DNA from: a virus
Direction: 5' to 3' (one strand)
DNA: 64,000 bases
IMG/VR virus record: IMGVR_UViG_3300027973_000044
Span: 1 to 64,000 of that record
Shown here: positions 1 to 64,000 of the stretch, piece by piece
Numbering within the stretch: the stretch's first letter is position 1
Layout of the letters: every line of letters starts with the position of its first letter
Notes under the pieces: model-generated
Told to the model about the DNA's origin: nothing
The model's input: only the letters and a program-made list of their open reading frames with translations
Database searches by the model: none
Made by a program: the position numbers and the translations under genes

Positions 1-241
1 CTATCTGTCTGGTCTTGACAAGTATAGCGGTCTACTAGAAATGGCTGTTAATCACGGTTTGATCATTCAAACTGGCGCAACATATACTAAGCCAGATGGC
101 ACGAAGCTCGGATATGCAAAGAACTTCACCAAAGATAAGAAGTTCTATGAAGATCTGATCCCACTTCTAGATAAAAAGCTTGAGGCTGCTTACAAATACG
201 GCAATACAACCGGTGAGGCGCCTAATGCTAAAGACGAATAA
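1..241 (+). CDS. uvsX: UvsX-like RecA recombinase, C-terminal end (partial)
   Basis: The reading frame is open from base 2 to the stop at 239-241, so only the last 79 residues are present. UvsX is the phage RecA-family strand-exchange ATPase used in recombination-dependent replication. The segment DKYSGLLEMAVNHGLI followed by a short hydrophobic and basic stretch matches the C-terminal part of RecA/UvsX proteins, where a 'GLLD.A...G.I' motif follows the ATPase core. The Walker motifs lie outside the window, so the call rests on this C-terminal pattern and on the T4-like replication genes nearby. The end overlaps the next gene by 17 bp. The ATG at 41 is internal, not the start. Confidence 0.7.
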   Translation, partial: YLSGLDKYSGLLEMAVNHGLIIQTGATYTKPDGTKLGYAKNFTKDKKFYEDLIPLLDKKLEAAYKYGNTTGEAPNAKDE

Positions 242-737
242 TCTTAAGATCGGGTTTAATTGCAGCTCTTTTGACTTGTTACACGCTGGGCATGTAACAA
301 TGCTGAAGATGGAGAAACAGTTATGCGATTATCTCGTGGCTGCTCTCCAGGTTGACCCCACAATTGACAGACCGGGTATAAAGAATAAACCAATTCAAAG
401 TGCTTATGAGCGGTATATACAGCTTCAAGCCTGCAAATATGTGGATGAGATTCTAGTTTATGAAACAGAATTTGATTTGCTTCAGCTTATCAAAACGCAG
501 ACCATACATATTCGATTCTTGAGTGAAGAGTATAAAGATAGAGACTTTACTGGTAAGCAGTATTGCTTGGATAACGGTATTGAAATACACTATCATAAGC
601 GGCAGCATGTATATTCTTCAAGCGAGCTTCGAAGCCGCACTGCTAAATTTGAAAATTTGAAGGATAGTAGTAGCAATATTGTAGTACCCCCTCAATACTC
701 CCCGGAGCTTACAGAGATTTCACATGAGCCGAAATAA
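225..737 (+). CDS. Cytidylyltransferase-like nucleotidyltransferase (HxGH family)
   Basis: A 170-residue protein with the Rossmann-type nucleotidyltransferase signature: KIGFNCSSFDLLHAGH near the N-terminus (HAGH, residues 20-23) and YSSSELRSR near residue 135, equivalent to the ISSTxIR motif. The family (glycerol-3-phosphate cytidylyltransferase TagD, RfaE2) transfers CMP or AMP from the NTP to a phosphorylated alcohol or sugar. I chose ATG 225 because it places the first beta-strand directly after the start; a longer reading from 180 would run inside uvsX. It overlaps uvsX by 17 bp and queC by 14 bp, so the three are probably co-translated. The true substrate cannot be read from the sequence. 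Other sugar genes in the window (8841, 58786, 59391) make a nucleotide-sugar or nucleotide-alcohol role plausible. Confidence 0.75.
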   Translation: MLKTNNLKIGFNCSSFDLLHAGHVTMLKMEKQLCDYLVAALQVDPTIDRPGIKNKPIQSAYERYIQLQACKYVDEILVYETEFDLLQLIKTQTIHIRFLSEEYKDRDFTGKQYCLDNGIEIHYHKRQHVYSSSELRSRTAKFENLKDSSSNIVVPPQYSPELTEISHEPK

Positions 738-1470
738 GATTGTAGTACCTGTGTCAGGCGGAATGGATAGCGTGGTCCTTCTGCATAAGGCTATTGAGAA
801 GGTTGGGGTTGAAAATGTATTTTGCTTGACATTTAATTACCAGCAAAGACATAATCGAGAATTAGGTTGTGCATTAGATCAAATTCGAGAGGTAGGCTGT
901 CAGGGGCGCTCGCGAACAGTTGATGTTAGTTTCATTAGAGACCTAGCACCCACGAGTAGCTTAACCAATGACAATATTGATACCCCGGATATTCGTGAAA
1001 TTGCTGGTGAAGCTCAACCGAAATCTTATGTACCAAATAGAAACATGATGTTTTTGAGTATTGCTGCTTCTTATGCTGAAGCTGTTGGTGCAGTGACAGT
1101 ATATCATGGTGCAACGAAGGTAGATAGTCTTGCGGGCTATTGGGATGCAAGTCCAGAATTTTTACCAGCAATTAATGCAATTCTTTCTTTGAATCGCGAG
1201 ACACGTATTACTATTGAAGCACCGTTAATTGGGATGGATAAGGCAGATATTATTAAGGAGGGTGTGAGGTTGAAAGTTAAATTCAGCAAGACCTATACAT
1301 GCTACTCTGGGGAAGAACTTTGTGATTCTAATTCCCCAAGCAGTGCGCTAAGGATCAAGGGGTTTGCCAATGCTGGTTATATTGACCCGCTTCCATATAA
1401 ACAAGATTTATCACACATTTGGAAGAAATATAACTGTAGAAAAATAGAATACGACACTTATAATACATAA
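724..1470 (+). CDS. queC: QueC-like 7-cyano-7-deazaguanine synthase
   Basis: A 248-residue PP-loop ATPase. The ATP-binding motif SGGMDS is at residues 11-16, and VPNRNMMFLSIAASYAE (about 103-119) is the typical QueC core. QueC converts 7-carboxy-7-deazaguanine to preQ0 with ATP and ammonia; in phages preQ0 feeds 7-deazaguanine modification of DNA. Two features are atypical. The C-terminal zinc site of QueC normally has four Cys; here Cys193 and Cys200 remain, while the positions of the other two are Asn/Ser (CDSNSPSSALR). The usual GYPDCRPEF stretch reads GYWDASPEF. The gene abuts, in the same frame, a class II glutamine amidotransferase, recalling the Gat-QueC fusions of Crenarchaeota and some phages. 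No folE, queD, queE or dpdA homologue is visible in the window. Confidence 0.85.
   Translation: MSRNKIVVPVSGGMDSVVLLHKAIEKVGVENVFCLTFNYQQRHNRELGCALDQIREVGCQGRSRTVDVSFIRDLAPTSSLTNDNIDTPDIREIAGEAQPKSYVPNRNMMFLSIAASYAEAVGAVTVYHGATKVDSLAGYWDASPEFLPAINAILSLNRETRITIEAPLIGMDKADIIKEGVRLKVKFSKTYTCYSGEELCDSNSPSSALRIKGFANAGYIDPLPYKQDLSHIWKKYNCRKIEYDTYNT
1459..1464 (+). promoter_or_regulatory. Possible -10 box for a leaderless amidotransferase mRNA
   Basis: TATAAT lies inside the end of queC, exactly 6 nt before the ATG at 1471. No good -35 hexamer is visible at the usual distance. The spacing equals that of the better-supported promoters at 7395, 10236 and 28982. No Shine-Dalgarno sequence precedes the ATG. 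Confidence 0.35.
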
Positions 1471-2145
1471 ATGTGCGGTATATTTGGTGCCACAGAACGA
1501 GAACGGTTCCTTACGCTTTACAATTTAAATCGTGAGAGAGGAACATTTGCCACCACACTCTGTTTTGTCACACAAAAAGGAGACATGATCGTTCACCGGT
1601 GGAGTGGACCAGTAGATGCAAAGACTGTTGATAAAAAGTTTGATGAAGAAGGGGAGAAGGTCTTATTTTATGTAGGTCATACGCAAGCGCCTACGTCTGC
1701 AAAGAGAAAGTATTCAAAAGACACATCACACCCCTTCACTTCTGGTAATTTTACTGTAGCACATAATGGTGTGTTAACAAATTTTACAGATCTTATATCA
1801 AATTATAAACCGACGTGGAGCAACCCTGTAGATTCGAGCATCATCCCATACATGTTTGCACTGCATGAAGAAGAGCGCAATACAGAGAATAATATTGCTG
1901 CAATTACAACATCTTTAGGTCAACTTGAAGGTACTTTTGGATTATGGATTTACGATTCAAATCGAAGAACAATGTTTTTAGCGAGATGTGGCAGCACACT
2001 CTTTGCCAATGTCTTAACAAATGAATTTAGTAGTATAAAATTTAAGAATAGTGAACCGCTTGAAGAGGGTCATCTCTACCAGTTAACACCTGAAGGTGTA
2101 ACTTCAGTAGCGTTGTTTGACTTTAATAGTCCTTTTTTTACGTAA
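1471..2145 (+). CDS. Class II glutamine amidotransferase (Gat partner of QueC)
   Basis: A 224-residue Ntn-type glutaminase domain starting MCGIFG, so Met removal exposes the catalytic Cys2. Other class II motifs are GHTQAPT (69-75), HP (87-88), AHNGVLTN (97-104) and a DSS at 121-123. The domain releases ammonia from glutamine for a partner enzyme. Its ATG follows the queC stop with no gap and in the same frame, and no synthetase domain is attached, so QueC is the obvious ammonia acceptor. In Crenarchaeota and some phages Gat is fused N-terminal to QueC and is linked to making 7-amidino-7-deazaguanine (archaeosine base); here the order is reversed and the proteins are separate. The Arg that normally binds glutamine in GHxR is Gln72 here. 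Activity is inferred. Confidence 0.8.
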   Translation: MCGIFGATERERFLTLYNLNRERGTFATTLCFVTQKGDMIVHRWSGPVDAKTVDKKFDEEGEKVLFYVGHTQAPTSAKRKYSKDTSHPFTSGNFTVAHNGVLTNFTDLISNYKPTWSNPVDSSIIPYMFALHEEERNTENNIAAITTSLGQLEGTFGLWIYDSNRRTMFLARCGSTLFANVLTNEFSSIKFKNSEPLEEGHLYQLTPEGVTSVALFDFNSPFFT

Positions 2146-3084
2146 TTAGACCGAGCTAAACTTATCGAAATCATCAAACCCGCTAGCACGGTTCCATGTG
2201 CCAAGATCTCTCAGAATATCTACCGGGGTTTGGTCCTCGCCACCATCAACAGTAGGTATTTCACCTGTTCCTTCACCTTCCTTGCTAGCAGCGGCATCCG
2301 ATTTAACAAAAGCGTTTTTAAATTTTAAACTGTCAACAAGGTCACCCACAAACTCTTTATCGCTAGCTTTTTGTGCATCATAAGCTTGCATTATGGCATC
2401 TCTTACTGCAGACACAAACTCTGGTGAAGAGTATAGATCTTTGCCTGCTATAACACTGATTTCATCAGGCATCTCTGCATAAACTTTTTGAAATTCGGGA
2501 ATAAATTTAGCAGCACCTCTCACGTAAGTATCTTCTGTTGAAGCAGCTGCAGGAGCGGCAGGTGCATCAGCTGTCTTCACAGCTTGTTTGACCTTAATAA
2601 CACTCTTCACAGGTGCAACAACACCTTTGCCACCCACTGCATAATCTCTATAAAACCCACCAAGATTGGCGATCACACGGGCTGTATAGCCTTTGAGTGC
2701 ATCACTGCTGGGAACCTTTAATTCAGGGTTACGAATCTTCAAATCATTCAGGGCCAATTTAACTGCATCTTTGATTTGCTGTCTGAATTGGTCTTCATTT
2801 GTTGAAGGGTTGACATAACCAACCTCTTTGCCGTTAATCACGGCCTGTTTCTGCTTGAAAAGCCGCGGAAAAATTGCCGCCGTCAACATATCTGCAGCTT
2901 CCTCTTTTGAAATGTTGAGACTATCCGCAATAGCACCAATCAAATAACCACCCCCGGGTGCTGTACCTATTTTCTTCCTAATTTCAGGCTCACCGCCACC
3001 TGCCCAATCTGTGCCAATATCGAGTTCATTGATAAGAATATTTTGCTTGTAAGCTTCAAAGATTAGTTTAGAGTCATTATTCAT
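2146..3084 (-). CDS. Probable internal head protein, unknown function
   Basis: A 312-residue protein that I do not recognise. The N-terminus (MNNDSKLIFEAYKQNIL) is short and amphipathic and contains IFEA, which fits the [LI]-x-E|[AGS] cleavage consensus of the T4 prohead protease gp21, as in T4 capsid-targeting sequences. The middle has a low-complexity Ala/Pro stretch and the C-terminus is acidic. The gene stands alone on the minus strand among + strand genes and has its own late box (3096-3103), so it is a late gene. It meets the amidotransferase gene tail to tail with no gap. Internal head protein is an inference from the N-terminus and the late promoter; another virion role is possible. 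Confidence 0.5.
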   Translation of the reverse strand: MNNDSKLIFEAYKQNILINELDIGTDWAGGGEPEIRKKIGTAPGGGYLIGAIADSLNISKEEAADMLTAAIFPRLFKQKQAVINGKEVGYVNPSTNEDQFRQQIKDAVKLALNDLKIRNPELKVPSSDALKGYTARVIANLGGFYRDYAVGGKGVVAPVKSVIKVKQAVKTADAPAAPAAASTEDTYVRGAAKFIPEFQKVYAEMPDEISVIAGKDLYSSPEFVSAVRDAIMQAYDAQKASDKEFVGDLVDSLKFKNAFVKSDAAASKEGEGTGEIPTVDGGEDQTPVDILRDLGTWNRASGFDDFDKFSSV

Positions 3085-3127: not shown

Positions 3128-3778
3128 ATGATTGCTATATACTCCCTAAGTCCATTGAAATCTCGCTGTCTTCTAGAAGAAACTCTGCCACTCTCAGACG
3201 ATGTGGTGCTCAATGTAAAATACAATAATACTACCGTTGGCCTTTGTGAATATTATAATTCTATTATTGAAAATGAAGAGAATGACAAGTATGATGCGGT
3301 AATTTGCTGTCACCATGATATATCTCTGCGATATGCAAATTTCCAAACAGGGGTCACAGATGCTCTCAAGCTTTACGATGTTGTTGGAGTTGCTGGTGGC
3401 AGAGCTCCAAAAGTAATAGAAAAGAATTTATGGCATTGGATGACACCCAGAGAAGAATATCGCGGAATTGCTGCGCATGGTGATTCTATTCATAATATGT
3501 TTGTGACAAACTTTGGTGCAACACCAAGCCGGGTAACTGTACTTGACGGTGTGTTCCTGGCATTTAATACTAAAAAAATTCGTAGAACTAAAGCACGTTT
3601 TGATGAGAAATTTATGTGGCATCATTATGATATAGATTTTAGCTTGACTTGTAACGCAAATAAGCTTAAATTAGGTGTGTGGCCTATTCTAATCTATCAT
3701 CAAAGCCCGGGGCTTCGAGATATGAATAACGAGCACTGGAACAAGAGTAACGAGTATTTTAGGAATAAATGGAGCTGA
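3128..3778 (+). CDS. Glycosyltransferase family 2-like protein
   Basis: A 216-residue protein resembling single-domain GT-A enzymes of the StrF-like/GT2 group. An early acidic motif CHHDISL (about 61-67) is a likely nucleotide-sugar/metal site. VLDGVFLAFNTK and FDEKFMWHHYDIDFSL follow, the latter matching the usual 'FDE.F..y.EDvDl' acceptor-side motif, and a HQS near the end fits the family. Predicted to transfer a sugar to an unknown acceptor (DNA base, cell-envelope glycan or protein). It heads an operon with the gp41 helicase gene, overlapping it by 10 bp. A sugar enzyme co-transcribed with the replicative helicase could hint at DNA glycosylation, but that is speculation. Confidence 0.65.
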   Translation: MIAIYSLSPLKSRCLLEETLPLSDDVVLNVKYNNTTVGLCEYYNSIIENEENDKYDAVICCHHDISLRYANFQTGVTDALKLYDVVGVAGGRAPKVIEKNLWHWMTPREEYRGIAAHGDSIHNMFVTNFGATPSRVTVLDGVFLAFNTKKIRRTKARFDEKFMWHHYDIDFSLTCNANKLKLGVWPILIYHQSPGLRDMNNEHWNKSNEYFRNKWS

Positions 3779-5106
3779 ACGAAAAGAAAGTTTTAGATTT
3801 AGATTTCTATGAAACGGTTATTGCTTATAACTGTTTGCTGGACTCTACGTACCTATCTTCCATTGTAGATTACCTGGATGTACGGTTTTTTAAAAATCGA
3901 GATATTAAAAGTATTGTATCGATTATCATTAAATTTTTTAAAGAACGCGGCACAGTGCCAACACAAACTGAAATCAAAGCCTATCTTGTTTCAGATGATC
4001 TCAAAGAGAGTTTCAAGCGAATGGTCGGGCTGTTTATTGATATTGATAAAAAATTTGATAAGACAGAATTAACTGACAATACAGAGCTTTTCTTGAAAGA
4101 GAAAGCTGTCTATCATGCTTTGCTGGATGCTGCAGAAAAACTGGATTCCAAGCAACTCAATACAGCTGAATTGTTAACAAGAATTGAGAAAGCTGTTGGT
4201 GTTAATCTTTCGCAAAACATGGGCATAGAACTTTTTAGCGAGATTGATGATTTTATCAAAGATTTGCATAGTGAAGAGCCACATATTAAAACGGGGTGGA
4301 AATGGCTTGATAATAAACTGGGTGGTGGGTTTCTTGAAAACGGAAGATCGCTGTATGTCTTTGCCGGTGAAACGAATGTTGGAAAGAGTATCTTTCTCGG
4401 TAATATCGCCACCAATATAGCTCTCTGTGGAAAAACAGTGCTTCTAATCTCTCTTGAGATGAGTGAAATGATGTATGCGCGAAGACTTTCCTCCTCAATA
4501 ACAAGCATACCGCTGAGCCATCTTAAGGCAGAATCTGATAACCTCCGTCAACTGATTACACAGATAGCTCAAGGCAAAAAATCTAAAATTATTATTAAAG
4601 AGTTCCCACCATCAACACTCACACCGCATCAGCTCAAGAGTTATGTAAAAAAACTTATTCAAAGAGGCATCAAGCCAGATGCTATAGTTTTAGATTATTT
4701 GAACCTACTGCATAGCCCATTAGGTAATAACAGTTATGAGCGTGTATTGTATGCAGCACAACAGACTCGTGCTCTAAGCTACGAATTAAACTGTCCAATT
4801 ATTTCTGCCACTCAGTTGAACAGATCTGGATATAATGTTGATAATCCTGGTCTTGAGACAATTTCTGAGAGTATTGGTTTGGCTACAACATCAGATGCAA
4901 TTGTATCTATTTGGCAGAAAGATGAAGATAAGGAACTTGGCATTATTAACATAGGCATGTCAAAGAACCGCTTTGGTCCAAACTTCGGAAGCATAGCACT
5001 CAAGATTGACTACAACACTCTGCAAATTACAGAAGATGATACGATCAATGAGAGCGAAGAGGCACGTGAGTTCTCCAAAACATTAACCACTTTGAGTGAG
5101 ACATAA
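3769..5106 (+). CDS. gp41: Replicative DNA helicase, DnaB/gp41 family
   Basis: A 445-residue hexameric 5'-3' helicase (T4 gp41 has 475). The N-terminal helical domain is followed by the RecA-like motor with Walker A GETNVGKS (200-207), SLEMSE, Walker B AIVLDYLNLL and ATQLNRSG, all typical of DnaB C-terminal domains. It unwinds the fork and binds the gp61 primase, encoded at 10270. The ATG at 3769 lies inside the preceding glycosyltransferase gene, and the AGGA at 3761-3764 could serve as ribosome-binding site. All catalytic motifs appear intact. Confidence 0.93.
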   Translation: MELNEKKVLDLDFYETVIAYNCLLDSTYLSSIVDYLDVRFFKNRDIKSIVSIIIKFFKERGTVPTQTEIKAYLVSDDLKESFKRMVGLFIDIDKKFDKTELTDNTELFLKEKAVYHALLDAAEKLDSKQLNTAELLTRIEKAVGVNLSQNMGIELFSEIDDFIKDLHSEEPHIKTGWKWLDNKLGGGFLENGRSLYVFAGETNVGKSIFLGNIATNIALCGKTVLLISLEMSEMMYARRLSSSITSIPLSHLKAESDNLRQLITQIAQGKKSKIIIKEFPPSTLTPHQLKSYVKKLIQRGIKPDAIVLDYLNLLHSPLGNNSYERVLYAAQQTRALSYELNCPIISATQLNRSGYNVDNPGLETISESIGLATTSDAIVSIWQKDEDKELGIINIGMSKNRFGPNFGSIALKIDYNTLQITEDDTINESEEAREFSKTLTTLSET

Positions 5107-58785: not shown

Positions 58786-59394
58786 TTGAAATTTAAAGAT
58801 ATATTTGTATTTGAAAAGCGGTTGGCAGAGTTCGCCGGTGCACCATTTGCTGTTTCCACATGTTGTTGTACACATGCACTAGAACTATGCTTCCGTATTC
58901 TAAAACCCAATTATGTAGAGTTTTCATGTCATACCTACATGGGAATCATCATGATGCTCAAAAATTTACATGTTCCCTTTCGAATGATTAACGATCAATG
59001 GCAGGGTGAATATAATTTTCGCAATAGCCCCATATGGGACTGTGCCAGGAAGTTTGTACCTAACATGTATGTGTCAGGATCTTACAAATGCGTTAGTTTT
59101 GGTGAAAACAAACCTCTTGATCTTGGCCGTGGGGGTGCAATTCTCCTGGATAATGAACAACACTACAAGCTTCTAACCATGTTAAAATTTGATGGCAAAG
59201 ATGTACAATATGAGCCATGGATAGATCAACAATATTTTGATGTGGGGTATCACTACAAGATGAATAACCGCGAATGCATTGTTGGTTTAGACAAACTTAA
59301 TGAATTCATAACCAAAGGTGACTTCTCTTATTCCCATACACCATATAGAGACTGTCGCAGAATGATAGTCAAAGGCATGCCACTGTTTACATGA
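58786..59394 (+). CDS. Short DegT/DnrJ/EryC1-like aminotransferase
   Basis: A 202-residue protein against about 370 for the family. FEKRLAEFAGAPFAVSTCCC matches the N-terminal 'fE..fA.y.G..~av.~~sgT', WDCARKF (84-90) matches the PLP-binding Asp motif, and SFGENKPLDLGRGGAIL has Lys109 in the place of the Schiff-base Lys. The C-terminal small domain is reduced to about 60 residues. Known enzymes make amino sugars from keto nucleotide sugars. The start is TTG 58786, the only reasonable codon before the family's first helix. It overlaps the next gene by ATGA. It may be a minimal active enzyme or a degraded one. Confidence 0.65.
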   Translation: MKFKDIFVFEKRLAEFAGAPFAVSTCCCTHALELCFRILKPNYVEFSCHTYMGIIMMLKNLHVPFRMINDQWQGEYNFRNSPIWDCARKFVPNMYVSGSYKCVSFGENKPLDLGRGGAILLDNEQHYKLLTMLKFDGKDVQYEPWIDQQYFDVGYHYKMNNRECIVGLDKLNEFITKGDFSYSHTPYRDCRRMIVKGMPLFT

Positions 59395-60260
59395 AGATAG
59401 ATTACGTATTTTCGTTTGCTAATCATTTTTATAAAGAGCTCTACAAGCAGCATTTTGATTGCGCTCTTATTAATCCGCGCAATGTTCATGAGCTACAGTC
59501 TGTGGATACAGCAAAGAATATTATATTTTTATTTGGAGACCCATACACTCTCAACTATATCAATAGGAGCAATCTTTCTGGCAAGAATATAATGTTTTTA
59601 AGACGGCATGAGTTCTATGAAAATAATTTTGCATTGCTTCAAAAAAACCGTGTTAAGATTCAGCATTTTTTTACTTTAAATTCTTTCTTTCAAAACAAAT
59701 TAAGAGACTCATACGGTATTGAGTCCACCATAGAGAAAAATTATCTGGATGAACAGCTATGGACATACAAAGGAAGAGGCCATGGCAAAGAGATTGCTTG
59801 GGTGGGTGAATTTCAGCAACGCAAATCACCAGATTATTTGAGTGAATTATTGTCTTGTTTGCCGGATTATAACATCCATTGTGCCATTTCACCAGGTCCC
59901 TCGAAACAACTGTATGTAGATTTTCTACAAAACCATAATCATAGCAATTTATTCCTGCATGATGATATTAATACTCAAGAGAAAATGAACAAATGGTTGG
60001 ATGATAAAAACTATTTGGTAACCACATCCATATCAGAGGGCTTGCCTAATAATGTCCTGGAGGCTCTGGCCAAAGGTATTAAGCCCGTAGTAAGAGATTA
60101 CCCTGGCAATATATTTCATAAATTTGCATATGAAAATATTTCTCAATTGAAATTGCACTTATCCGGTGAATACAATTCACTAGAATATCGGCACATGATT
60201 GAAGAGCATTATGGATTAAAGCATTTTCTAGACTTTAGAGACAAGGTTATTGAGCTCTAA
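59391..60260 (+). CDS. Glycosyltransferase (GT-B, GT4-like)
   Basis: A 289-residue protein. The C-terminal half has the GT4 pattern: IAWVGEFQQRKSPDYLSELL (start of the nucleotide-sugar domain), NYLVTTSISEGLPNNVLEAL with the E-x7-E motif, and GIKPVVRDYPG. The N-terminal acceptor domain is short and diverged. It is coupled to the aminotransferase, so both may build or attach one unusual amino sugar. Its 3' end overlaps the convergent radical SAM gene by 14 bp. Confidence 0.7.
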   Translation: MKIDYVFSFANHFYKELYKQHFDCALINPRNVHELQSVDTAKNIIFLFGDPYTLNYINRSNLSGKNIMFLRRHEFYENNFALLQKNRVKIQHFFTLNSFFQNKLRDSYGIESTIEKNYLDEQLWTYKGRGHGKEIAWVGEFQQRKSPDYLSELLSCLPDYNIHCAISPGPSKQLYVDFLQNHNHSNLFLHDDINTQEKMNKWLDDKNYLVTTSISEGLPNNVLEALAKGIKPVVRDYPGNIFHKFAYENISQLKLHLSGEYNSLEYRHMIEEHYGLKHFLDFRDKVIEL

Positions 60261-61209
60261 CAAAGGACTTTTGTATCTTCATGTCAAAGAGGTGCGGGCA
60301 TGCAGTCTTGGGGCATACAATTGGTGAATCAAATAGTTTGATTCTTAGGTTTGGATTCTCTTGAAGATTGCCAAAATATCTCTGTCGGCAACAAGCGCCC
60401 CAGATGGAACCATCTTCTTTGATGTTAAGAGCATTTTTGCCTGCGTTACAGAAAATGCCTCTGAAGTTGTGAAAGTTATTTGCTAATATCTCCTGGCCGT
60501 CAAATGGGGTCTTTCTGCCATCAAAATATTCAACCTCTATTCTATCATTTTCAAAATTATATTTTCTATTGGATGGATTGTGCTTGATGAAATCTATTTG
60601 CTCTTGATTGTAAAGTGGAGTAAAGTGTCTTTTGTAATCATTAACATCAAGAACTCCTTTGTTATTGACAGTGATACCGTCTATTTTGAAGAACTCTTTT
60701 GATGCCTCTATTGCTACGTCCCAATGTTCAGGGTCCATCAACACATGCAATTCAATATGCTTTTTCTTTTTTAAAAATATTTCAAAGATGCTTTTGAAGT
60801 GATCTATGTTTGCATACCTTGGGTGAAAGCTTGGATACAGAATATCAATCAAATCTACAGCTTTAGACCAGAATTCTAAATTATTACCCAGATTTGTATT
60901 CATTGCCACCAGAAAGTTAATGGATCTCAGGTATGACATCACTTCTTCAACTCCTTTATAGAAACTGGGCTCACCTCCAGTGAGGGTTATCTTTCTTTGA
61001 GGCTTGGATTGTATGCAGGGGTTATCTTTATATAAGTTATCAAAGAAATTTATATATATTTCAGAAGAAATATGCGGAAACATACCTTTGTGAAGAACAG
61101 GGGGGCAGTAATTGCATCGTTGATTGCATAGATTATTAATTACAAAATTAATTGCAAAGATGTCATTGGTGATGCCTTTGATGATGGGTTGGTTAATATG
61201 GTTTTGCAT
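60247..61209 (-). CDS. Radical SAM protein with C-terminal Cys-rich (SPASM-like) domain, no. 1
   Basis: A 320-residue protein. The [4Fe-4S]-SAM motif is CNQRCNYC (Cys28, Cys32, Cys35), and TLTGGEPSF follows as the SAM amino-group motif. The C-terminal region has CNAGKNALNIKEDGSIWGAC and a second Cys, then CPKTACPH, typical of auxiliary-cluster (SPASM/twitch) domains. I prefer ATG 61209 to GTG 61215. It overlaps the upstream radical SAM gene by 17 bp and is co-transcribed with it. Substrate unknown; such enzymes modify peptides, sugars or proteins. Confidence 0.75.
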   Translation of the reverse strand: MQNHINQPIIKGITNDIFAINFVINNLCNQRCNYCPPVLHKGMFPHISSEIYINFFDNLYKDNPCIQSKPQRKITLTGGEPSFYKGVEEVMSYLRSINFLVAMNTNLGNNLEFWSKAVDLIDILYPSFHPRYANIDHFKSIFEIFLKKKKHIELHVLMDPEHWDVAIEASKEFFKIDGITVNNKGVLDVNDYKRHFTPLYNQEQIDFIKHNPSNRKYNFENDRIEVEYFDGRKTPFDGQEILANNFHNFRGIFCNAGKNALNIKEDGSIWGACCRQRYFGNLQENPNLRIKLFDSPIVCPKTACPHLFDMKIQKSFVRAQ

Positions 61210-61999
61210 GTTCACACTTCCAGCACAATGTATTGGATTTATTGTTACTCAATGAATTTACGATATGTTTATAAGTTTCAGAATTAACAACTTCTTCGTA
61301 GGAGCTTTCTATTAGATTGCCTATCTTATGCTCCAAACTCCAGTCCATGCAACAAAGATACACATCTCCATTTGGTAATAAAACGTGTTGTTTGATTTTG
61401 TTTGTAGAGCATCTTATGGCCATATTTGCGGTGTTATCTATTTTTTTAAAGCTATCAACATTACCAGCTCTACTATTCCATCTGAAGTAATCAGGGGTTA
61501 GAAAGGAGATTTTTGCTCGGGTTTTTACTAGTAAGGGTTGTATTGAAGGGTGTGGCTCTTTTCCAAAGAAAACTATTGCATCGCTATTCTCTAGGATTTG
61601 CAGACATTTTTCAACATTATGAATATAATTATCATCAATTACTAAGTTCATTGAATTATCATTAACCGGCAAATGCAAGATAATGTTATCATACTCTCGA
61701 TTCAGAATTGTATTAATATTATCCTGGGACGCTTTATAGAGGGTTGTAGATATTCTTGTGTAATGCCCTCTGCTTCTGCAGAGGGCCACCATCTTGAAAC
61801 AATCTTTATGAAAGAAAGGTTCAGAGAACCCTGTAAAATGTATTCTTGTAGAGATTGGCAGTTTGGTTAAAACGTGACTAAAATTTTCTAAAGATAGCTT
61901 CTTTATATGAGAATTGTATTTAAATAAAAAAGAATCTTGTGGGCAATAAGAGCATTTTATGCTGCACCCCGCTATAGTGGTTATCTCTAATGCATCCAT
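61193..61999 (-). CDS. Radical SAM protein with SPASM-like domain, no. 2
   Basis: A 268-residue protein. CSIKCSYC (Cys12, Cys16, Cys19), then HFTGFSEPF in place of the GGEP motif, and near the C-terminus VLLPNGDVYLCCMDWSLEHK with IGNL and a final CWKCEH, a SPASM-type pattern. ATG 61999 is used; the longer frame from 62038 runs into the divergent gene. Start codons of this and the divergent sulfotransferase are only 14 bp apart. Probably works together with no. 1. Confidence 0.75.
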   Translation of the reverse strand: MDALEITTIAGCSIKCSYCPQDSFLFKYNSHIKKLSLENFSHVLTKLPISTRIHFTGFSEPFFHKDCFKMVALCRSRGHYTRISTTLYKASQDNINTILNREYDNIILHLPVNDNSMNLVIDDNYIHNVEKCLQILENSDAIVFFGKEPHPSIQPLLVKTRAKISFLTPDYFRWNSRAGNVDSFKKIDNTANMAIRCSTNKIKQHVLLPNGDVYLCCMDWSLEHKIGNLIESSYEEVVNSETYKHIVNSLSNNKSNTLCWKCEHAKPY

Positions 62000-62013
62000 A
62001 TATAATATGATAT
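62000..62013. promoter_or_regulatory. Overlapping divergent promoter cores
   Basis: The 14 bp between two divergent ATGs contain TATAAT on + (62001-62006, 7 nt before ATG 62014) and, on minus, TATCAT (62012-62007), 7 nt before ATG 61999. Both mRNAs would be leaderless. The -35 matches are weak. Confidence 0.4.
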
Positions 62014-62709
62014 ATGCCCAATATTGTTTTACTAGCAATTAGTTACCGATCTGGTTCTAATTGTCTTAGATCAATATTGGACCAGAATAACGACATATCT
62101 GCTAAAGGTGAAATATTTAGGCCTTATTTTAAGTTGAACAATGTTAATCGTGACAGTCTTCTGGGTGAGATTGACACACGTCTGAATAGATTTAGACACA
62201 GGGAAGACAAAAATAAAGTTTTCTTATATACCAGTGTTGTTGATGAGATATTGAAGCTAGAAGAATATGACTTGATCCGCAGCATTTTACCTGACAAATC
62301 AATCTTTCTATATCGGGAAGATCTCTTGGAACAGTACTGTTCAGTCAAGGTGGGGAGTGTGACAGGTGTATACCAGGACACAGAGCAATCCAAACAAGAA
62401 AAACAAAAAATAAGAATAGAGTTTAATCTTAATGAATATTTGAATTTTGTTGCCAGAATGAATCGTCATAGAGACTTCTTTGTTGCCTTTTATAAGAAAT
62501 ATAAGATAAACTATATTACTGTAGAATACAAGAGCATATTGAAGCGAATAGAGGAAATATTTAAATTTTTAGGTTTAGACTATAAAGGCGAATTACCGAC
62601 TACTATTAAATCTGAAAGTCGATCATTGCACGAAATTATAATTAATTTTAAAGATGTTCCTACTAATATGAATCATAAGCTAGTAGTTGATGACATTATT
62701 CCTGCTTAA
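62014..62709 (+). CDS. Sulfotransferase family protein
   Basis: A 231-residue protein of the Stf0/LPS-sulfotransferase kind. YRSGSNCLRSIL (11-22) is the 5'-phosphosulfate loop for PAPS, and LYREDLLEQYCSVK (about 99-112, Arg101 and Ser110) is the 3'-phosphate motif. The C-terminal part (VEYKSILKRIEEIFKFLGLD) fits the family. It would transfer sulfate from PAPS to a hydroxyl of a glycan, lipid or protein. It sits between convergent and divergent radical SAM genes and shares the accessory island with a glycosyltransferase. The 3' end overlaps the next minus-strand gene by 30 bp. Confidence 0.72.
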   Translation: MPNIVLLAISYRSGSNCLRSILDQNNDISAKGEIFRPYFKLNNVNRDSLLGEIDTRLNRFRHREDKNKVFLYTSVVDEILKLEEYDLIRSILPDKSIFLYREDLLEQYCSVKVGSVTGVYQDTEQSKQEKQKIRIEFNLNEYLNFVARMNRHRDFFVAFYKKYKINYITVEYKSILKRIEEIFKFLGLDYKGELPTTIKSESRSLHEIIINFKDVPTNMNHKLVVDDIIPA

Positions 62710-63573
62710 TGTTCTTCTGTCAATGGGGCAAACCTTGCAGATATCGTTTTGCTTTCTGTTTGCTAGAATTTTAGCAAAAAAATCTTTTGATTTTTCTGAA
62801 TTGAATATCTCACTAATAGTTTGTTTGTTTGCGTTGCCTATTATTACTTGTCCTTGGTAATCATGGCAACATGGATTACATTCACCATTCCAATTTATAA
62901 CAAATGAACCAGAAAAAATTGAGCAACTATTGGGTATTTCTTCGGTAACTTTTTGTTGTGTTTGTTTATTAATTTGTTCTGTTTCAGTATATTCTGCCAT
63001 ATTAAAATTAGGCAGCTTGTAATATATGTTATCGTATAACCCTGAGAATTTATTTTTAATATTGATCAGATCTTGTGTATTGTAAGAAAATAAAACTGTT
63101 TGTATCTTTATTTTGGGTCGAGAAGGCATGTCACCATATTTGTCGAAATAGTATTTCATTCCTTCGTGTATCTTGTCTAGATCTACACCCTTTCTGTATG
63201 TTGCATTTAATTCTTTGGTTGACCCATCAATACTAACAACACACTCATTCAGCTTGCTCTTGGCTAGTAAGTCTATATCTTCTTGTTTGTAGAAGACTAA
63301 CCCGTTTGTGGATGTCCTGTGGTACACATTCTCTGGGATCATTTGATAGAGCTGGGACCACCTGGGGTGCAGAAAAGGCTCTCCATAATTGAAAGAGACT
63401 ATTTGCACCTTGTGATTCAATTCTCTTACCTCATTCATTATTTTTTGAAATAATTCATTGGAAATGAACCCTTTTTTTCTATCCAAAGAATCAGAGCCTG
63501 TAGGACATAGGGGGCATTTGGCATTACACGTGTTGGTAAGCTCTATCATTATGGAGCTAAGATGTCTATTCAT
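62680..63573 (-). CDS. Radical SAM protein with SPASM-like domain, no. 3
   Basis: A 297-residue protein. IELTNTCNAKCPLCPTG carries Cys16, Cys20 and Cys23; FNYGEPFLHP replaces GGEP; CSIFSGSFVINWNGECNPCC and later CKVCPIDRR give the auxiliary-cluster Cys. The overall layout is close to SPASM-type peptide- or glycan-modifying enzymes. ATG 63573 is preferred to TTG 63588. It overlaps the upstream gene by 8 bp, so both are co-translated. Confidence 0.75.
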   Translation of the reverse strand: MNRHLSSIMIELTNTCNAKCPLCPTGSDSLDRKKGFISNELFQKIMNEVRELNHKVQIVSFNYGEPFLHPRWSQLYQMIPENVYHRTSTNGLVFYKQEDIDLLAKSKLNECVVSIDGSTKELNATYRKGVDLDKIHEGMKYYFDKYGDMPSRPKIKIQTVLFSYNTQDLINIKNKFSGLYDNIYYKLPNFNMAEYTETEQINKQTQQKVTEEIPNSCSIFSGSFVINWNGECNPCCHDYQGQVIIGNANKQTISEIFNSEKSKDFFAKILANRKQNDICKVCPIDRRTLSRNNVINY

Positions 63574-64000
63574 ATACGGGATGAACAAATTTATGTTCTT
63601 TTAATTTTAGTTTTGCTTCTTTTTCATCTATAAATTCATCATAAAAATAACGAGCCCTTCCTTTCATATAAATTATAGAATAAAATTCAGCATGATCATA
63701 TAGCTCTATGTTGAGATCTTGGCAAGCTATGCCCATGAGCAATTCCGTTGACAGCATATATTCACCAGGTAGCCCTCTCGCTAGAAAACTGCTTATTCTA
63801 CTTGTTAGAAATTTATCGTCTTCAAAGTACTTTGCCGTTTTAAATGTCTGTATCACATTGGATCCAATTCCAAAGATTCCATTTTGTATGAATTTGGGTC
63901 GTATTAAATTTATGGGCACCTCACCATCGTAAATCCTTCTATCAAGAGTAGATTTGAATAGAGTTCCAAACACAGTATTCTTTAACTCATTATGTAGCTT
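63566..64000 (-). CDS. Unknown protein, C-terminal part (gene runs out of the window)
   Basis: The minus-strand frame is open to the window edge (from base 64000), giving at least 144 residues; a GTG at 63973 is probably internal. The sequence has a central LARGLPGEYMLSTELLMGIA and a charged C-terminus (DEKEAKLKLKEHKF). The motif recalls glycan-biosynthesis proteins of the WavE kind, but this is only a faint impression. It is translated just before radical SAM protein no. 3. Confidence 0.5.
   Translation of the reverse strand, partial: KLHNELKNTVFGTLFKSTLDRRIYDGEVPINLIRPKFIQNGIFGIGSNVIQTFKTAKYFEDDKFLTSRISSFLARGLPGEYMLSTELLMGIACQDLNIELYDHAEFYSIIYMKGRARYFYDEFIDEKEAKLKLKEHKFVHPVYE

Follow-up and report, generated by a model that had tools for sequence, protein, structure and literature searches.

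A glutamine-dependent synthesis of 7-cyano-7-deazaguanine (preQ0) is proposed for an uncultured T4-like phage, by which a stand-alone amidotransferase (Gat) and a QueC-family enzyme would together feed QueF and a transglycosylase, and preQ1 would take the place of guanine in phage DNA (probability roughly 0.6; Table 1). The DNA analyzed (hereafter the window; 64,000 nt) is the start of an 81,923-base viral record from IMG/VR (G000), which is incomplete at both ends, with its 5′ end inside uvsX. At its beginning, the window spans the region from uvsX to gene 41 in a T4-like phage genome. Judged from sequence, a widespread uncultured group of T4-like phages probably disguises its DNA guanines by a 7-deazaguanine pathway; to our knowledge, neither an isolate nor a host of this lineage has been described.

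In the proposed pathway, FolE, QueD, and QueE encoded by the phage would make 7-carboxy-7-deazaguanine, while Gat would split glutamine and pass the ammonia to QueC, which would convert 7-carboxy-7-deazaguanine to preQ0. Phage QueF would reduce preQ0, and the resulting preQ1 would be put in place of guanine in phage DNA by a TGT-fold transglycosylase; DNA modified in this way would probably be protected from host nucleases. We infer that Gat is the partner of QueC, that substrate is channelled between them, that the product is preQ1, and that the pathway acts on DNA and serves to protect it. A stand-alone amidotransferase linked to preQ0 synthesis would mean that, in some phages, QueC may not depend on free ammonia.

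Table 1. Features at the start of the window (uvsX to gene 41 interval).
Feature	Position	Strand	Basis or remark
UvsX (recombinase), C-terminal end	2..241	+	Matches complete 374-aa protein, G001 609-1733, E 1.6e-42
RfaE2-like nucleotidyltransferase	225..737	+	PF01467, phrog_7878
QueC-family enzyme, 248 aa	724..1470	+	PF06508 1.1e-50, phrog_1550 1.9e-53
TATAAT box	1459..1464	+	6 nt before Gat ATG
Gat, stand-alone class II (Ntn) glutamine amidotransferase, 224 aa	1471..2145	+	GATase_6 4.4e-7, GATase_7 1.6e-6
Convergent ORF between Gat and glycosyltransferase-like gene	2146..3084	-	No family match
GT-A-like glycosyltransferase	3128..3778	+	PDB 2nxv/2qgi matches 1e-5
T4 gp41/DnaB-like replicative helicase	3769..5106	+	phrog_19 2e-73; marks uvsX-41 interval

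The QueC-Gat gene pair

The stop codon of queC (TAA, 1468–1470) is followed directly by the Gat start codon (ATG, 1471), with a spacer of 0 and in a shared frame. The preliminary description had reported this zero-distance junction exactly, and its accounts of Gat as a stand-alone class II amidotransferase with Cys2 (N-terminus MCGIFG) and of two separate domains with QueC first also hold. Gat belongs to families PF13522/PF13537 and phrog_12378, the latter being the family of the KVP40 Gat. Upstream, the start of queC overlaps the nucleotidyltransferase gene by 14 bp; only some members of the clade have this RfaE2-like gene between uvsX and queC. UvsX is annotated as phrog_97 in the relative G002.

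Relatives of the window QueC were found at 80 viral loci in a scan of IMG/VR, 78 of which have sufficient sequence downstream. All 78 encode Gat downstream of QueC on the same strand, which argues that the adjacency is not due to chance. The two genes abut exactly (a gap of 0) in 30 close relatives and are no more than 60 nt apart in 57, and the distance increases in more distant groups, in which other genes separate them; the order in L056, L058, and L081 is QueC, glycosyltransferase, Gat. A Gat-QueC fusion was found at none of the 80 loci. The QueC-Gat distance correlation does not exceed those with the neighboring glycosyltransferase and DnaB, and therefore the distances carry no special signal of co-evolution.

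The split pair with QueC first is also encoded by Vibrio phages 1.081.O and 2.275.O, by Pseudomonas phage pf16, by KVP40 (KVP40.0124/0125, with a 1-nt overlap), and by nt-1 (VPFG_00172/00173). This order is already present in other phages and is not new, contrary to what had been proposed from the window. No description of the split pair was found in the literature searched; Hutinet et al. (2019; PMC6884629) discuss Gat-QueC fusions, and ArcS is assigned to nt-1 there. KVP40-type phages resemble the window in having split genes (from a 1-nt overlap to a few dozen nucleotides apart) and a Gat of phrog_12378 (checked for KVP40 and 2.275.O), and their pair is adjoined by FolE, DpdA2, and either QueF or ArcS. 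They differ from the window lineage in an intact QueC zinc motif and in using DpdA2 instead of a Campylobacter-type transglycosylase, and the KVP40 pair, unlike that of the window, lies outside the uvsX-41 interval.

The canonical QueC signature (PF06508 cluster 1) comprises SGGxDS, YxQxHxxE, VPxRN, YPDC, and the zinc motif C(x)8CxxCxxC (PMC13329287). The window QueC retains the first three (SGGMDS, YQQRHNRE, and VPNRN), whereas YPDC is replaced by YWDA, so that Tyr and Asp are kept and Cys is lost. The C(x)nCxxCxxC zinc motif is absent, with CYSGEELCDSNSPSSALR in its place; checked against C(x)8CxxCxxC, the window protein reads CYSGEELCDSNSPSS, which lacks the canonical pattern. The motif is missing from 42 of the 79 scorable QueC loci, these 42 being all of the wider clade of the window, and also from the isolates Iggy and immuto; the sister clade and the QueC of KVP40 retain CGxCxxC or a close form. 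A structural model of the window QueC (mean pLDDT 85.0) has QueC 3bl5 and 2pg3 as its best PDB matches. It resembles canonical QueC (E. coli; B. subtilis 3bl5) in fold, in SGGxDS, YxQxHxxE, and VPxRN, and in the Tyr of the CY motif, and it differs in lacking the zinc Cys residues, in having YWDA for YPDC, and in having a dedicated amidotransferase. Because the zinc Cys motif and the YPDC Cys are missing, preQ0 synthesis by this enzyme is not certain. If the zinc-less enzyme works, the zinc site would not be needed for the chemistry, a point relevant to the repurposing of the QueC family. In Vibrio phage GR7B (L135, 5974–7564), two queC genes lie side by side, the second with diverged substrate motifs.

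Gat retains the active-site residues Cys2 (MCGIF), His-Asn-Gly (HNG), and Asp (VDSS). The glutamine-binding Arg (Arg73 of GlmS) is replaced by Gln in most of the Gats, including those of the window (HTQAPTS), the window clade, and KVP40; Arg occupies this position in L053, L056, L068, and L080–L082.

Pathway genes and transglycosylase in longer relatives

No 7-deazaguanine genes other than those for QueC and Gat were found in G000 itself. Longer relatives encode FolE, QueD, and QueE (phrog_2076) approximately 18–25 kb upstream of QueC, and the absence of these three from G000 is expected because the record starts inside uvsX. In G001, QueF and a TGT-fold transglycosylase are encoded approximately 70 kb downstream (72.3–73.2 kb and 76.0–76.9 kb, respectively). 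By synteny, the end of G000 corresponds to ~69 kb in G001, a few kilobases before the expected QueF and transglycosylase; their absence is attributed to the record stopping short of these positions. The preliminary description had proposed a search for folE, queD, queE, and dpdA, and that search was negative in G000 but recovered FolE, QueD, QueE, and a TGT-fold transglycosylase in the longer relatives. With these genes and QueF in close relatives, the predicted 7-deazaguanine DNA-modification module, as originally suggested, is well supported. By extension from relatives with ~75% QueC identity, we infer that FolE, QueD, QueE, QueF, and the transglycosylase would also be encoded by the genome from which G000 derives.

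The transglycosylase was not matched in relatives by the PF01702, phrog_887, phrog_7068, and phrog_10773 models or by a DSG[AG] motif scan. The reading of "no DpdA" from these standard models was overturned by a mixed-profile comparison and structure prediction. A profile-profile comparison using a mixed DpdA1/DpdA2/TGT profile singled out one family at 77–84% (next best, 4.7%), with members in G002, G011, and Campylobacter phage WX1. A DpdA2-only profile did not detect this family, and a search of the sequences of solved structures with the transglycosylase profile returned no match. The protein has 268 aa and a TGT fold, and family members are 46–50% identical to the G002 protein. For the AlphaFold2 model of the latter (pLDDT 93.8), tRNA-guanine transglycosylases accounted for 50 of the 50 PDB matches listed, at a probability of 1.00. 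A 441-aa protein encoded beside FolE was also considered as a DpdA and rejected, as TGT features were not visible by eye and there was no family match.

TGT-fold proteins occur in 9 of the 34 records examined; carriers include G002, G011, G014, and G026–G028, together with G001 and G003, which are long relatives within the window's own clade. Four long records (111–193 kb) were found via the transglycosylase, and every one of them encodes QueC. A homolog from Flavobacterium phage immuto carries the annotation "DNA guanine transglycosylase"; identity to the transglycosylase of the window lineage is ~41% for immuto and ~46% for WX1. The QueC of immuto, like that of the window, has no zinc motif, whereas in WX1, unlike the window, Gat was not found in the stretches searched. 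In work by Cui and colleagues from 2023, Campylobacter phages reportedly use a subfamily named DpdA3, and we take the WX1/immuto-type transglycosylase to be of this type. For a large uncultured T4-like group that combines a Campylobacter-type transglycosylase with QueF, and of which we know no isolates, 7-deazaguanine-containing DNA is predicted.

Of 85 transglycosylase loci, 73 have QueF in the flanking sequence retrieved, and in the aligned members its NADPH-reductase motifs (ESKSxKLY, the catalytic Cys, and FHE) are intact. A search for ArcS in the relatives examined was negative.

In T4-like phages of Stenotrophomonas, Acidovorax, and Xanthomonas (L146, L147, and L148), FolE, DpdA2, and QueE are encoded before gene 41, in L146 and L147 after uvsX, and some of the three also encode QueC or QueD. 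This suggests that the region before gene 41 is a hotspot for 7-deazaguanine genes in T4-like phages.

The predicted base and alternative readings

Gat is most likely the ammonia source of QueC. It lies beside QueC in phages with QueF (KVP40, 1.081.O, 2.275.O, and pf16) as well as in nt-1, where ArcS is encoded and QueF is not annotated in the cluster; because the pairing with QueC persists alongside either QueF or ArcS, Gat is read as an ammonia supply for QueC. Because QueF of the lineage keeps its reductase motifs and Gat is paired with QueC whichever of QueF and ArcS is encoded, we predict preQ1, and not archaeosine, as the base. It is tentatively suggested, at a likelihood well short of even, that a zinc-free, Gat-dependent QueC acting with a Campylobacter-type transglycosylase and QueF would convert much or all of the virion guanine to preQ1 or a relative.

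The preliminary description had linked the pair to 7-amidino-7-deazaguanine, by analogy with Gat-QueC fusions. The split pair would then be an archaeosine synthase that places ammonia from Gat onto the preQ0 nitrile and yields DNA with 7-amidino-7-deazaguanine (dG+), as in phage 9g, whose Gat-QueC fusion together with DpdA gives dG+ in E. coli (PMC6884629). Phage 9g shares with the window the two domain types and 7-deazaguanine DNA modification; it differs in that its domains are fused with Gat first, its zinc motif is intact, and QueF is not annotated in its cluster, and the two Gat parts have weak sequence similarity only. The DNA of nt-1, a phage with the split pair, contains dPreQ0, dADG, and dG+ (PMC6884629), which is in line with the proposed pathway; the traces of dG+ would fit an archaeosine synthase but could come from ArcS. 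An archaeosine synthase is unlikely for the window lineage, because a QueF that keeps its reductase motifs is encoded near the transglycosylase, Gat occurs alongside either QueF or ArcS, and the zinc Cys residues kept in the QueC of 9g are lost from that of the window; the link to 7-amidino-7-deazaguanine is weakened accordingly. In nt-1 itself (L144, 6687–7295), Gat directly follows QueC and the phage DNA has been measured; the low dG+ content has been discussed via ArcS, and the nt-1 Gat is a candidate alternative.

It is doubtful that the zinc-less QueC halts at the amide and that ADG is the base inserted by the Campylobacter-type transglycosylase. The lineage transglycosylase is 46–50% identical to its relatives, among them that of Campylobacter phage WX1, and Campylobacter phages are described as highly dADG-modified in a report that is cited in PMC6884629. 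However, the QueC of WX1 retains the Cys motif, so that zinc loss does not track dADG, and halting at the amide would leave QueF of the lineage without its nitrile substrate.

There is very little likelihood that the genes raise host tRNA queuosine, unconnected with DNA, as has been proposed for DpdA-less phages with preQ0 genes (PMC6884629), given that the TGT-fold protein of the lineage is akin to a phage protein annotated as DNA guanine transglycosylase and that the genes lie among those for replication, between uvsX and gene 41. It is highly improbable that QueC and Gat form a repurposed sugar or protein amidotransferase acting with the nucleotidyltransferase and glycosyltransferase, or perform a Cap9/QatC-like protein deazaguanylation: the conserved glycosyltransferase neighbor, the RfaE2-like gene, the altered zinc site, and Cap9 as the fourth structural match of the QueC model would fit, but YxQxHxxE, VPxRN, and the Tyr and Asp of YPDC are retained, true QueC is the closest fold, the nucleotidyltransferase is restricted to part of the clade, and the genes neighboring the pair include no CD-NTase or QatA/B/D partners.

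Expression signals and other features of the record

A -10 box exactly 6 nt before the Gat ATG had been noted in the window; this TATAAT is kept at every one of the clade's 18 distinct QueC-Gat junctions, even though the Tyr-Asn codons of queC that it overlaps could vary. A genome-wide scan was made for TTGA-N17-20-TATAAT, with at most one mismatch in TATAAT and an end 3–9 nt before an ATG. In G002, the pattern precedes 24 of 203 genes (0.65 in shuffles), 19 of them at exactly 6 nt; the counts are 14 of 243 for G011 (0.25 in shuffles) and 3 of 69 for G000 (0.15 in shuffles), and it was found at no gene in the P-SSM7 and WX1 stretches examined. Shine-Dalgarno enrichment is small in G000 and G011. 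Such near-ATG sigma70-like promoters would give leaderless or nearly leaderless mRNAs in this lineage. Because its TATAAT matches the lineage-wide pattern, a separate, nearly leaderless Gat transcript is plausible; the Gat gene has no good -35 box. The glycosyltransferase gene (3128) is preceded by TTGATT..TATAAT..ATG.

The GT-A-like glycosyltransferase stays close to the pair in almost every relative, including those with a rearranged gene order, and 37 of 40 members match PF13712. The modified base could be an acceptor for this enzyme. Farther along the record, a ~17-kb stretch that is missing from G001 (window 58786–64000, continuing to ~76000 of the record) contains three genes of the radical SAM or SPASM type, glycosyltransferases of families 1 and 8, and two proteins of >1,200 aa, one of which has laminin-G-like domains.
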